This document shows positions 1,718-6,824 of a DNA stretch of 21,731 nt, in pieces. The notes under the pieces were generated by a model. It did not search any database. It was given only the letters and a program-made list of their open reading frames with translations, and was not told where the DNA came from. The translations under genes were made by a program, and so were the position numbers. Source of the DNA: a virus; the IMG/VR virus record IMGVR_UViG_3300020439_000099, positions 1 through 21,731 of that record, one strand, 5' to 3'. Position 1 is the first letter of the stretch, and the number at the start of each line of letters is the position of its first letter.

Positions 1718-2434
1718 ATGGCAGGAACTCTCGCAGAAAGACAGGAAACTGGTCTTGTAGATGCAATCAATTCCTTTTCTGAGAAGAAAGGAGGTAAACC
1801 CTTCACTCTACAGGCAGGTTCAACTAGACTAACTAACGTCCTTTCTGCCAATAAAGTGATGGGTAGATCTGCATCTGGTGATGAACCTTACACCGATGTA
1901 GAAATTAAAACCACAAATAGAATTTATAAACTGTCAATGAAAGGTCCTAGTGCTCCTAGTATGGCTGGTGGAGGACTAAACGGACTTGAAAAAATTGTAC
2001 CTGGATTTAGTGGTAGATTTATTCGGGCAGCATATGAAAAGTATCTGCAACTTGGATACACACAGGGACAACAGATTCCCGACATGTATGGTCAGATTGG
2101 CGCAGAGTTGAAAGAGACTATTGTTCTTGGAACACAAGCAATGGGAGGTCCAATCACCCATATGTATATTGGACCTATGGATGTTCACTCTACATCTAGT
2201 GGTAATACTTTGACAGTGAATGGTAGACTCCATGATGCCAAAAAGTATGCAAGAGAACATGATCTCTACTTGAGACTTAGGAAAAGAAGAGCAGACCAAC
2301 CTTTCGAGACAAAGGAAAAAGATAAGAAAGGTTTACCTTTAATTCTTGGTAAGTCTCCTAGTGCTGGTGATAAGGGTAGAAGAATTGTGATTGTGGCTAA
2401 ACCACCATCAAACGCCATAGTAGTAACCTTTTAA
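1718..2434 (+). CDS. Conserved phage protein of unknown function, possible nuclease-like fold
   Basis: This 238-residue protein resembles a protein family I associate with T4-like and other marine phages, but no function is established to my knowledge. Visible features are a central YTDVEIKTTN...YKLSMKGPSAPSMAGGG block (about residues 57-85), a conserved-looking MGGPITHMYIGPMDV segment, and a basic LYLRLRKRRADQPF stretch followed by a glycine- and lysine-rich end. The D-x-E-x-K spacing in DVEIK, with a later SMKG, is reminiscent of a degenerate PD-(D/E)XK nuclease core. That is only a pattern match. There is no membrane segment or signal peptide. It is preceded by a CTAAATA late motif, so it is probably made late, and the next late promoter overlaps its stop codon. 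Confidence 0.82.
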   Translation: MAGTLAERQETGLVDAINSFSEKKGGKPFTLQAGSTRLTNVLSANKVMGRSASGDEPYTDVEIKTTNRIYKLSMKGPSAPSMAGGGLNGLEKIVPGFSGRFIRAAYEKYLQLGYTQGQQIPDMYGQIGAELKETIVLGTQAMGGPITHMYIGPMDVHSTSSGNTLTVNGRLHDAKKYAREHDLYLRLRKRRADQPFETKEKDKKGLPLILGKSPSAGDKGRRIVIVAKPPSNAIVVTF

Positions 2435-2440
2435 TAAATA
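2433..2440 (+). promoter_or_regulatory. Late promoter AATAAATA
   Basis: AATAAATA starts on the second base of the TAA stop codon (2432-2434) of the preceding gene and ends 23 bases before the GTG start at 2464. Motif and spacing match the other late promoters in the window. Confidence 0.65.
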
Positions 2441-2463: not shown

Positions 2464-3753
2464 GTGAAAAGTTTCTTAGAATTTATTACCGAAGCCGTCA
2501 AGACCAACGCTTCCACTCAAGCCAAACAAAAGGGTTTGACTGGAGATGGTCATGGCGGTTGGTATGATAAGAGTGGAAAGTTTGTAGCAAAGACAGTTGA
2601 TGGTAAGTTAAAATTCACAGGTTCTAAGGAGACTGGGAAGGATGATGCACCAAAACAAGGCGGTCCATCTAAGCCTAATGTATCAGGGAAGACTGCGACT
2701 CCAACTGTTGCATCCCCAGCACCTGCTGCCCAGTCAAGTCAGGCAACCAACCAGGAAACTGGTTCGCAAAAGGCGTCATCACCCGAAGAACAATCTCTAG
2801 AAACGATGGGTGAACCATCGAGTGGTAGTGCTGTAATCGTTTTTGGTAGATTCAACCCACCAACTATTGGTCACGAAAAACTTTTAAAATCTGCAGCTAG
2901 TGAAGCAAAGAGAAGTAGAGCTGATCTAAGAATTTATCCAAGTCGTACACAGGATGCTAAGAAAAATCCTCTGGAACCTGGAACTAAGATTGAATATATG
3001 AGGATGATGTTCCCTGATTTTGAAGAAGAGATTAGGGATGATCCAGAAGCAAAAACAATCTTCAATGTATTGCAGTCTTGTTACGGTCTTGGTTATAGAG
3101 GAGTAACTATTGTCGTAGGTCAGGACAGACTTGCTGAGTTCCAAGGTCTCGCTCAAAAATATAATGGAGATCTCTATGAGTTTGATGAGATCAAAGTTAT
3201 TTCTGCTGGGACAAGAGACGCAGACTCTGATGGTGTGGAAGGTATGTCCGCATCTAAGATGAGGAAGGCTGCCAAGGATGGGGACTTCAAAGTCTTTGCT
3301 AAGGGTATTCCTAATAGTCTTGGAAACGTAGATAAGAAACAGCTGTTCAATACTTTGCAGAAGAGTATGGGTGCATCTGTTAGCGAAGATTGGGAAGTTG
3401 CACCTAAGTTAGATCCAGAGGGTCTGAGAATTGCTTATATGGATAATGAAGTATTTACTGTGGGTTCATTGGTAGAAAATTTAAACACAGGTGAGGTTGG
3501 TAGGATTACAAGACGTGGTACAAATCATGTGATCTGCATGACTCCAGAAGGTACGATCTTCAAGTCCTGGTTGAGAGATATCATGGAAGCATATGAGGTT
3601 GGTACTGATGAGTACAGAGAGTATGCTCAGTCTATGACACCAGGACAAGGCAAAAAGAAGTTCGGTTTTCCTAAAGGTAGAATCAACCCAACAATTCTTC
3701 CATTAAAACCAAACGATCCTCCATCAGGTCCAGGCACAAAATACAATAAATAA
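2464..3753 (+). CDS. Nucleotidyltransferase (cytidylyltransferase-like) with capsid-targeting-like N-terminus
   Basis: The start is GTG at 2464, giving MKSFLEFITEA. This matches the shape of the T4 capsid-targeting sequence (MKTYQEFIAEA in internal proteins IPII and IPIII), including an ITE|A site for the gp21 prohead protease. Residues 20-55 carry a GDGHGGWYDKSGKFVAKT block seen in other cyanophage proteins, followed by a low-complexity Ser/Ala/Pro/Gln linker to about residue 118. The catalytic core begins with GRFNPPTIGH at 128-137, a TxGH-type form of the HxGH nucleotide-binding motif, and includes the signature-like SASKMRKA at 262-269. A C-terminal SH3-like block (VGSLVENLNTGEVGRITRRG) follows, with another protease-like IME|A site. 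Such enzymes transfer nucleotides to small phosphate substrates; which substrate is unknown. It is late-promoted. The enzyme family is sure, packaging into the head is inference. Confidence 0.88.
   Translation: MKSFLEFITEAVKTNASTQAKQKGLTGDGHGGWYDKSGKFVAKTVDGKLKFTGSKETGKDDAPKQGGPSKPNVSGKTATPTVASPAPAAQSSQATNQETGSQKASSPEEQSLETMGEPSSGSAVIVFGRFNPPTIGHEKLLKSAASEAKRSRADLRIYPSRTQDAKKNPLEPGTKIEYMRMMFPDFEEEIRDDPEAKTIFNVLQSCYGLGYRGVTIVVGQDRLAEFQGLAQKYNGDLYEFDEIKVISAGTRDADSDGVEGMSASKMRKAAKDGDFKVFAKGIPNSLGNVDKKQLFNTLQKSMGASVSEDWEVAPKLDPEGLRIAYMDNEVFTVGSLVENLNTGEVGRITRRGTNHVICMTPEGTIFKSWLRDIMEAYEVGTDEYREYAQSMTPGQGKKKFGFPKGRINPTILPLKPNDPPSGPGTKYNK
3745..3752 (+). promoter_or_regulatory. Late promoter AATAAATA
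   Basis: AATAAATA overlaps the TAA stop codon of the nucleotidyltransferase gene (3751-3753) and ends 28 bases before the ATG at 3781. It matches the T4 late consensus at seven of eight positions. Confidence 0.65.
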
Positions 3754-3778
3754 CTCTGATAAGGTCTTTCTTTCAGAG
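3754..3778 (+). other. Small hairpin just upstream of the 3781 start codon
   Basis: CTCTGA at 3754-3759 can pair with TCAGAG at 3773-3778 around a 13-base loop that contains AAGG, the only Shine-Dalgarno-like bases before the ATG at 3781. Such a stem could hide or position the ribosome binding site. A six-pair stem is weak and may be chance. Confidence 0.25.
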
Positions 3779-3780
3779 CT

Positions 3781-4761
3781 ATGTTTGATAAAAAGTATGA
3801 TGCTGAAGACTTGGCATCTGTTTATAAGTCTGTATATGAGAAGAAATTAGATCCTGTTGGTCAGGAAGATAAGGATATCGATAACGATGGTGACCACGAT
3901 AAGTCTGATAAGTATCTTCTGAACCGTCGTAAGGTTCGTGGTGCCGCGATTAAGACTAGAAAGGAAGAGGTAGAACTAGACGAGAACCGTCGTGCTGCTC
4001 GTTCTGCTGGTGGTTACAAGGATGACTCCAAGAAACAGACAGATCCTTCCAAGGATGGTTTCACTGGCATCTCTGGTTCCATCAAGGACATCATGCGCCA
4101 GAACAAAGAGATTGAAGCTGCCAACAAAAAGAAGACCAAGAAAGAAGAAGTTGAGACAGTTGATGAAGGTATGAAGAAAGCCCGCGAGAACGTCGGAGCT
4201 TCTACCTGCTGGGATGGTTATAAGGCCAAGGGAACCAAGAAAAAGAATGGTCGTGAAGTTCCTAACTGTGTAAAGGAAGAAGAGGAACTAGAAGAGGGTA
4301 AGAAAGAACTTTCTAGAGAAAAGAGAAACAAGATGTTCCGTCGTGCTGGTAACCTCTCCAGAGAAGCTCTGCAGGGTGGTGACAAGGGATCTGAAGCACA
4401 TAAGAAATCTGGAAAGATTGTCAAGGCACTTAATAAAGATGCTGAAGAGAACAACAGAAATGATGTTAGAGAGGAAACTCTGAGAGACATCTACGAAGGT
4501 AAGAAGAAAGGTCTTTGGGACAACATCCATGCCAAGCGTAAGCGTGGTGAGAAACCTGCCAAGCCTGGTGACAAGGACTATCCTAAGACTTTGAACATCG
4601 AGTCCAATGAAAAATTGGAAGAAGCAGCTCCTGCTCTCGTCGGTGTACTTGCTAAGATGGCTGCAAAAAAAGCAGCAGCTCATGTTGCAAAGAAGGGTGC
4701 TGAAAAAGTAAAAGACAAGATGGGTAAACTCCTTAAGGGAGATGAAGAGGAGGAAGGTTGA
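3781..4761 (+). CDS. Charged late protein with EF-hand-like loop and prohead-protease-like sites
   Basis: The protein has 326 residues and is extremely rich in Lys, Glu, Asp and Arg. Residues 32-43 (DIDNDGDHDKSD) fit a 12-residue EF-hand or dockerin-type calcium loop with acidic residues at positions 1, 3, 5, 7, 9 and 12. Later comes a CWDGYKAKGTKKK...VPNCV block, a motif I associate with marine T4-like phage proteins. Several LxE-type sites resemble gp21 prohead protease cleavage sites: LDE|N near residue 67, LEE|G near 172 and LEE|A near 287. The last 40 residues form an Ala/Lys-rich helix (VGVLAKMAAKKAAAHVAKK). High charge, helix content and protease-like sites recall T4 prohead core or internal proteins, but no direct homologue is known to me. 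It is driven by the late promoter at 3745. The stop codon overlaps the next start as TGATG. Confidence 0.8.
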   Translation: MFDKKYDAEDLASVYKSVYEKKLDPVGQEDKDIDNDGDHDKSDKYLLNRRKVRGAAIKTRKEEVELDENRRAARSAGGYKDDSKKQTDPSKDGFTGISGSIKDIMRQNKEIEAANKKKTKKEEVETVDEGMKKARENVGASTCWDGYKAKGTKKKNGREVPNCVKEEEELEEGKKELSREKRNKMFRRAGNLSREALQGGDKGSEAHKKSGKIVKALNKDAEENNRNDVREETLRDIYEGKKKGLWDNIHAKRKRGEKPAKPGDKDYPKTLNIESNEKLEEAAPALVGVLAKMAAKKAAAHVAKKGAEKVKDKMGKLLKGDEEEEG

Positions 4762-6824
4762 TGGCTAAACCAACTCTTGACGATCTAATCGATTCGGTGA
4801 AAAAGGATCCTGCTCCAGATCCTAAAAAAGTTGCTGCTGAAAAAAAGAAGAGAGCAAGAAAAGAAGCTCTGAAGAACGTACCCGTTGCTAAGAAAAAGTC
4901 AAGGGCACAAAGAGATAAGGAGTCTTCGGACTCCTTCATTGATAAAGCAAGGAAGGCAGTCTCTGACGGAAGAAAGAAGGAAGTTGCCAGAAAGAAGAGT
5001 GAAGACACTCTTGCCAAAAAGACTAGAAGTAGAGAACTTGGAGACAAGAAAAAGTCTCTGGAAGCTAAGAAAGCTGCGGGAGAAGAAAAAGGTAAGAAGG
5101 TTGCTGCGGAATTAGGTTCTGCAAAGACGACTGCCGTTTCTTCAAAAGATTCTAGTGCTGATGCTGGTACAAAGATGATGGGAAATGCACTTAGTGCTGC
5201 TGGTGCTGGTATCCGAGCAGGACTTACAGCTGCTGGTGCTGGTGAGAAAGCGAATAGATTGAAGAAAAAGGTGATGCAGAGGATGAAGAAGAACCGAGGT
5301 CTTAAGACTGGAGTTTCTTCTACGCAATCCATCAAAGATAGAAACGCTAAAAAGAAAAAAGAGAAAGAGAAGGATCCATGGAATGAGTCTATGGATTGGA
5401 GAGACAACTACATTCCAACTGAGATTGAAACCACAGATATTATTAAACCAGAACCTCTCAAAGCTTCTAATTGGAGAGAGGATTTCCTTTGGGAAGTAGA
5501 AGACTATCCAAAGGAAAAGAAAGAGAAACAAATCAAACCAATGACAGGAAAGAATACTGTCATTATCAATCCAAAGATCGATGAAGGTATTCGTCTTAAA
5601 ACCAAAGACGAGTTCATGCAGGGTTTGAATAATGCAAAAAAGAGATGGACTGATTTTACGAATTGGCTCATTCCCCCAGCAAAAGATTCAAACGAACCTA
5701 CCGTAAGAGCTGGTGAAAGAACTCCAAATACTGGAGGAATTAATCAACCACATATCCCATCTAGAGGAAAAGACGGTAGACGATATGGTTCTGAAGATGA
5801 TGGAAGTGTAGCACCTCCAAAGAGTACTGAAAAAGATACCAGAACTCCAGATCAGAAAACAACTCCTGCAGACAGAGCTAAACCTACTAAACCTACTAAA
5901 CCGGCTGCTACACCAAAAGCAACAACTCCAGCACCTGCTGCGTCCTCAACTCCCAGGGACAGAGGACCCCGTGATTATGGATCCAAGGAAGCGAACATGG
6001 CTGCTTGGGCAAAAGCAAATCCAAAACTTGCTGCAGCAGCTAAAGAAAGAGCAAGAACTAGGGGGACGAATCAGACTACCAATCCTTTAATGAAGGATAT
6101 GAAGTCGAGAATGCCTGCTCCTAAAACAGGAACAGGAAGTGCTCCTGCATCAACGGCATCATCAACACCGAAGGTAAAACCACAACCACAACGTATTCCA
6201 GTACAACCATTTAGATCTCCTTCAAGGGGTACAACTACCAACCCAGGATCTAGATTCAAGTCTGTTACACCAATGAGATTGACAAACTCTTTCTCTAACT
6301 GGAGATCTGAGTTGCAATTAGATGAAGAGGCAGAGAAAAGATACTGCCCAAAATGTGACAAAGTAGAAACTAAATCTGAGTGTTCTTACGGTCCAAAATA
6401 TTGGGAAGAGAACGCAAAGAAAGTAGATACTCAAGAAGAGTCTTACACTATTGATCCAAAAGCACATCGCAAGAACCAACGTGCTGCTAAGATTAGAACT
6501 CTCTCCAAGAAAGGTGCTACCGAAGGAGAGAGATCTGCAGCAGAAAGAAAAACCAAAGGTCCTAAGATGTTTGGTGAAGGTGCTGCCTGGACTAAGAAAG
6601 AGGGTAAGAACTCTTCAGGTGGACTGAATGAGAAGGGACGTAAGTCCTATGAAAGAGACAACCCAGGTTCTGATCTAAAGGCACCTTCTAAGAAGGTTGG
6701 AAATCCTCGTCGTGCATCTTTCTGTGCTCGTATGAAAGGTATGAAGAAGAAATTAACTTCTAAGAAGACCGCATCCGATCCAGATTCTAGAATCAATAAG
6801 TCCCTTAGAGCTTGGAATTGCTGA
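4761..6824 (+). CDS. Large lysine-rich late protein with WR motifs and C-terminal conserved domain
   Basis: I chose ATG 4761 over an in-frame TTG three bases earlier because it overlaps the previous stop (TGATG) and sits 3 bases after the purine-rich GAGGAGGAAGG. The 687-residue product has a Lys/Ala-rich helical N-terminal 200 residues, then a disordered Pro/Thr/Lys/Ser-rich middle (about 300-500). Three similar short motifs occur: MDWRDNY at W213, SNWREDFLWE at W238 and SNWRSELQLDE at W514. A CPKC...C cluster lies at residues 529-541, possibly a zinc knuckle. The C-terminal 80 residues (from AWTKKEGKNSSGGLNEKGRKS at 609) form a conserved domain ending SRINKSLRAWNC, which I recall as a DUF (DUF6321) found in viral proteins. 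The strong positive charge suggests DNA or capsid binding. Function is unknown; a packaged internal or structural role is inference. Confidence 0.83.
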   Translation: MAKPTLDDLIDSVKKDPAPDPKKVAAEKKKRARKEALKNVPVAKKKSRAQRDKESSDSFIDKARKAVSDGRKKEVARKKSEDTLAKKTRSRELGDKKKSLEAKKAAGEEKGKKVAAELGSAKTTAVSSKDSSADAGTKMMGNALSAAGAGIRAGLTAAGAGEKANRLKKKVMQRMKKNRGLKTGVSSTQSIKDRNAKKKKEKEKDPWNESMDWRDNYIPTEIETTDIIKPEPLKASNWREDFLWEVEDYPKEKKEKQIKPMTGKNTVIINPKIDEGIRLKTKDEFMQGLNNAKKRWTDFTNWLIPPAKDSNEPTVRAGERTPNTGGINQPHIPSRGKDGRRYGSEDDGSVAPPKSTEKDTRTPDQKTTPADRAKPTKPTKPAATPKATTPAPAASSTPRDRGPRDYGSKEANMAAWAKANPKLAAAAKERARTRGTNQTTNPLMKDMKSRMPAPKTGTGSAPASTASSTPKVKPQPQRIPVQPFRSPSRGTTTNPGSRFKSVTPMRLTNSFSNWRSELQLDEEAEKRYCPKCDKVETKSECSYGPKYWEENAKKVDTQEESYTIDPKAHRKNQRAAKIRTLSKKGATEGERSAAERKTKGPKMFGEGAAWTKKEGKNSSGGLNEKGRKSYERDNPGSDLKAPSKKVGNPRRASFCARMKGMKKKLTSKKTASDPDSRINKSLRAWNC

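Follow-up and report, generated by a model that had tools for sequence, protein, structure and literature searches.

A Cyanophage Nucleotidyltransferase with a T4-Type Capsid-Targeting Peptide Is Probably a Head-Packaged Enzyme Delivered with the Genome

We describe a cyanomyovirus nucleotidyltransferase that begins with a peptide of the T4 capsid-targeting type and which we hold, with a probability of roughly 0.8, to be a head-packaged enzyme delivered with the genome, for which we infer cleavage and injection. The window (i.e., the whole stretch of DNA analysed, 21,731 nt) is a 21.7-kb cyanomyovirus fragment; the closest complete genome record is that of Synechococcus phage Sf-FS3, in which the orthologous protein is 89% identical. 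The ORF at positions 2464–3753 (+ strand) specifies a product of 429 amino acids, reading MKSFLEFITEAVKTNAS...GRFNPPTIGH, and its GTG at 2464 is the sole candidate start after the in-frame stop when ATG, GTG and TTG are considered. The capsid-targeting interpretation, advanced in a preliminary description of this DNA, is supported by the conserved N-terminus, by gp21 in related genomes and by the occurrence of orthologues in virions.

The peptide, MKSFLEFITE|A, is encoded at positions 2464–2496 (+), and conservation and comparison with T4 place the predicted gp21 cut between bases 2493 and 2494. The resemblance of MKSFLEFITEA to the targeting sequence of T4 internal proteins was confirmed: in the T4 record, IPII and IPIII both start with MKTYQEFIAEA. 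According to those passages of a T4 review that treat the mutational work (PMC9026906), targeting depends on residues 4 and 7 and processing on residues 8 and 10. Our 10-residue peptide has aromatic residues at 4 and 7, followed by a predicted gp21-type cleavage sequence (hydrophobic residue 8, Glu10 and small residue 11). The peptide is kept at residue 1 in 77 of 80 IMG/VR homologues (11 of these with a GTG start), which bears out the conservation anticipated for the N-terminus, while the remaining three begin one residue shorter (MNFVDFIKEA). In an alignment of 37 sequences, columns 2, 4, 7, 10 and 11 show little or no variation and column 8 is L or I in 34, with columns 3, 5, 6, 9 and 12 variable; as a point against the reading, residue 6, E in the window protein and in T4, is mostly Q in the homologues. 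Glu10 is invariant and followed by Ala or Ser, and amongst the 80 homologues, indels set in directly past the predicted cut. This pattern, with F4, F7, L/I8, E10 and A11 nearly fixed, fits the T4 genetics and thus counts in favour of packaging in the head.

A peptide of just 11 residues might resemble another by chance, an explanation to which we give practically no credence, since it is refuted by the conservation across homologues, by pattern controls that yielded nothing and by the confinement of the motif to gene starts. A degenerate DNA pattern of the peptide was present in at least 120 IMG/VR contigs and its codon-scrambled control in none; in nine large records, 13 matches were obtained versus 0 with the reversed pattern. 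The strict motif occurs at one of the 1643 methionines of S-SM1, namely the start of the orthologue, and at two of the 423 methionines in a 49-kb stretch of T4, which are the starts of ipII and ipIII. In Sf-FS3, it occurs at two methionines, both annotated gene starts, in addition to the GTG-started orthologue. Judged from these sequence comparisons, the peptide is real, selected and specific to gene starts. Two small Sf-FS3 genes, 117 and 169 (L016:18880-19128 and L003:19451-19771), start with MKSFQKFLGEG and MRSFKQFMSES; one of them is located between terminase genes.

The processing protease, the presence of which was to be checked according to the preliminary description, is encoded in all nine related records (gp21; PF03420), that is, in Sf-FS3, in the IMG/VR contig whose copy of the nucleotidyltransferase is 89% identical and in seven further records. 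Because the window is a 21.7-kb fragment, we infer the gp21 of its own virus from these relatives. The gp23 of Sf-FS3 has a site matching gp21 (LGE|A) at residues 54–55. A T4-type late-promoter-like element, AATAAATA, is found at positions 2433–2440 (+), 23 bases before the start codon. ATAAATA occurs within 60 nt upstream in 60 of the 80 homologues, versus 3.4% of the 62-nt bins at the same loci, and most homologues without it show CTAAATA, so that by its sequence, the nucleotidyltransferase gene has its own late-promoter-like motif, a putative promoter. A further late-promoter-like ATAAATA at 3746–3752 (+) precedes the next gene.

Published mass spectrometry answers whether such proteins are present in virions: peptide-bearing orthologues occur in purified particles of at least four cyanophages (S-SM1, S-SCSM1, S-SZBM1 and S-CREM2), with the peptide in four out of four. 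Virions of S-SM1 contain T4-GC190 (Sullivan et al. 2010; PMC3037559), in that phage SSM1_190, which starts MKKFSAFLNEA. ORF91 of S-SCSM1 (MKSFLQFLKEA) is annotated as NMNAT and virion protein; the flanking ORFs 89, 90, 92 and 93 are likewise annotated as virion proteins. S-SZBM1_140 (MRFRQFIIEA) is included in the published virion proteome, and ORF154 of S-CREM2 (MKNFSSFLTEA) was detected in virions by mass spectrometry. The presence of the orthologues in virions is already published. Neither a published link between these virion proteins and the targeting sequence nor a report of a processed N-terminus was found in open-access full texts, and the terms “capsid targeting” and “cyanophage” came together in one open-access paper, the T4 review (PMC9026906), the passages of which seen here do not make that link.

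The authors of the S-CREM2 study pointed out that enzymes present in abundance may be carried along when virions are purified. Accordingly, the N-terminal helix could owe its conservation to some other role (oligomerisation or membrane binding, for instance), and the presence in virions be carry-over; residues 4–11 are indeed predicted to be helical, at low confidence. We consider this very improbable: the same peptide occurs on unrelated proteins and on T4 IPII and IPIII, Glu10 is invariant with Ala or Ser next to it, and there are four independent detections in virions. In S-SZBM1, the virion abundance index of the orthologue (0.26) is near those of the head protease (0.30) and the prohead core protein (0.19).

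Behind the peptide lies a second N-terminal module, ASxQAKxxGLxGDGHGGWxDxxGxxVAKTxxGKLKF (residues 12–53; positions 2497–2622, +), recognised by HMM matches, including PHROG_3561, which matches residues 2–56 of the protein. Residues 54–119 (2623–2820, +) form, according to the predicted model and the gaps in the alignment, a disordered low-complexity linker of variable length; pLDDT is below 50 over residues 54–109. The nucleotidyltransferase domain follows (residues 120–306; 2821–3381, +), identified by PHROG matches, predicted model and motif. It harbours the nucleotidyl-transfer motif GRFNPPTIGH (2845–2874, +), to which attention had already been drawn, and a second motif, GMSASKMR (3241–3264, +). 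PHROG “cytidyltransferase” matches over the domain are strong (E 8e-100). The Pfam CTP_transf_like family (PF01467) scores 18.8 bits, below the curated cut-off of 21, for which reason we describe the protein only as having the fold and motif of such an enzyme and as presumably working like one. The predicted model gave Z scores of 13–14 over some 150–165 residues with chains of CoaD, NadD and NadM (archaeal NMNAT), the CoaD and NadD/NMNAT chains differing by no more than about 1 Z unit; a PDB sequence search with the protein returned no trustworthy match. According to the model, the domain has the NadD/NMNAT/CoaD-type fold, together with the [HT]xGH motif. The assignment of a single reaction was dropped, as CoaD and NMNAT fit about equally well in the fold comparison. 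An NMNAT activity could, as a guess, restore NAD after an NAD-depleting defence.

The C-terminus includes a small beta domain (residues 331–376; 3454–3591, +), supported by PHROG_22379 and PHROG_4808 matches, by strands in the predicted model and by separate ORFs elsewhere. In PHROG_4808 and at L224:3540-3794, this domain is labelled “ribonucleotide reductase alpha subunit”, apparently in error. The second protease-like site noted in the preliminary description, IME|A (residues 373–376; 3580–3591, +), has little support: the string is present and Glu375 is near invariant, but the gp21-type site is not conserved. In LIE|K of S-SM1 and LVE|V of Syn9, no small residue follows the Glu, and the string sits at the margin of the folded beta domain; we therefore do not count it as a site.

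Natural variants indicate that the parts are separable. The enzyme domain occurs without the peptide in a clade represented by S-WAM2 and Syn1 and in jumbo phage RaK2, which implies that the peptide is a separable addition; in S-WAM2 and Syn1, the C-terminal domain is encoded as a separate ORF. The nucleotidyltransferases of P-RSM6 (MITFHVFITEA) and S-CREM2 have the peptide and lack the module. Conversely, one IMG/VR ORF (L131, from 8041, +) lacks the enzyme domain but retains the peptide, the module and the C-terminal domain, and two other copies have altered active-site motifs, SIKH and TSAH (L045, ORF from 2714, −; L079, ORF from 6713, −). These last three copies, together with adjoining genes for modular proteins seen in virions, would suit a protein that is targeted to the prohead and cut but acts there, or is a core or scaffold component, without being injected or having a function in the new host. 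This we regard as unlikely: GRxNPPTxGH is intact in 80 out of 80 full homologues, a pattern that argues for catalysis, and by analogy, T4 proteins bearing this peptide are injected, as stated in the review passages referred to above.

The leader is by no means restricted to nucleotidyltransferases. In S-CREM2, non-structural proteins that were detected in virions and carry the peptide are a SAM hydrolase (MKDFDSFLEE), an APH-like kinase (VKRFDAFLTE) and gp13 (MKDLHSFLTE), and a virion-detected Cas9-type HNH nuclease has RFASFMAEA behind 17 extra residues in its annotated form; MISFDQFLSE opens the kinase of S-CRM01. When peptide-bearing starts are set against the S-CREM2 virion proteome, the outcome (Fisher p about 0.012) is only supportive, as it involves only 3–4 starts and the motif was written after some of the proteins had been seen. 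A set of 81 peptide-tagged ORFs includes T4-type internal proteins, members of the present nucleotidyltransferase family, SAM lyase, PARP/ART-like, metallopeptidase-like, DUF5661 and DUF6321 proteins. The GDGHGxW module, a conserved stretch of about 40 residues directly after the peptide, is common to three unrelated enzymes, since a profile of nucleotidyltransferase residues 12–56 matches kinases (E 1e-16 to 1e-22) and nucleases (E 1e-12). As the module recurs on unrelated virion enzymes, it probably belongs to the delivery leader or serves as an anchor within the head, and from sequence, the peptide looks like a portable delivery leader. Peptide-tagged SAM lyases, ADP-ribosyltransferase-like proteins and a metallopeptidase-like protein occur in IMG/VR (L049:442-984, L081:11564-12109; L025, L032, L051, L061, L078, L087, L092; L031). 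The Cas9-type HNH nuclease of S-CREM2 (gp12; L233:4705-7314) and related ORFs (L229 from 4676; L235 from 4967) combine a targeting-like peptide with the GDGHGxW module.

Two further modular proteins are encoded downstream. The modules of the first (3781–4761, +) directly follow the targeting peptide in other phages, and the gene following the nucleotidyltransferase in S-SCSM1 (ORF92) is annotated as a virion protein. The second (4758–6824, +) carries DUF6321, also found on peptide-tagged ORFs, and its Sf-FS3 homologue is annotated “structural protein”. The occurrence of DUF6321 and the other modules of both ORFs amongst peptide-tagged ORFs suggests that 2464–6824 may be a head-protein cassette. 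A relation of the upstream ORF 1718–2434 with a peptide-tagged Melnitz-3 protein was not supported (BLASTP E 0.14). In the Melnitz-3 phage (L226:266-4929), genes before the nucleotidyltransferase start with MQGFKTFLSEA and, from a TTG, with MINFSKYITED; the latter protein is a DUF6267 protein with a KWDG motif that also adjoins the gene in cyanophages.

For the head-packaged enzyme that we favour, late in infection residues 1–10 would bind the prohead core by way of the aromatic residues 4 and 7, and gp21 would cut after Glu10. The freed enzyme would remain in the head alongside the DNA and pass with it into the cyanobacterial cell, where its NadD/NMNAT/CoaD-like domain could be active ahead of any phage translation. 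These viruses thus probably carry the enzyme ready-made into the cell. This offers a mechanism for the repeated, unexplained detection, from 2010 on, of a “cytidylyltransferase” or NMNAT in purified cyanophage particles, and the targeting peptide answers part of the co-purification doubt. The peptide is a genome-searchable signal by which one could list the proteins brought into cells by T4-like phages, among them enzymes for which NAD, SAM or host DNA could be targets ahead of phage transcription. With more modest assurance, we favour the broader idea that in marine T4-like phages, a general leader (the T4-type peptide, often with GDGHGxW) loads and injects a large, changing set of enzymes (nucleotidyltransferase, Ser/Thr kinase, HNH Cas9-type nuclease, SAM lyase, ADP-ribosyltransferase-like proteins and others), comparable to a secreted-effector system read from its signal peptide.

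Amongst known systems, NadD/NMNAT and CoaD adenylyltransferases (PF01467 superfamily) share the fold and TxGH motif with the phage protein, but the latter adds the leader, module and C-terminal beta domain, at 11–18% identity. The cyanophage T4-GC190 “cytidylyltransferase”/NMNAT proteins (SSM1_190, Syn9 gp184, S-SCSM1 ORF91) are orthologues, alike in domain order and gene neighbourhood, and their presence in virions is listed in published reports; a statement on a targeting peptide was not found in the open-access reports of T4-GC190 in virions. With T4 IPII and IPIII (Mullaney and Black 1996, as cited in the T4 review PMC9026906), the protein shares M-K-x-aromatic-x-x-F-I/L-x-E|A, the gp21-type site after residue 10 and an encoded gp21, here read from related genomes. 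The T4 internal proteins, which have been shown to inhibit type IV restriction (PMC12373910), are small, whereas the cyanophage cargo is an enzyme domain, and the GDGHGxW module following the cyanophage peptide was not seen in the T4 proteins examined. The T4 ADP-ribosyltransferase Alt is likewise a head-packaged enzyme, which gp21 processes at N- and C-terminal propeptides, and peptide-tagged ADP-ribosyltransferase-like proteins occur in IMG/VR; the fold of Alt differs from that of the nucleotidyltransferase.
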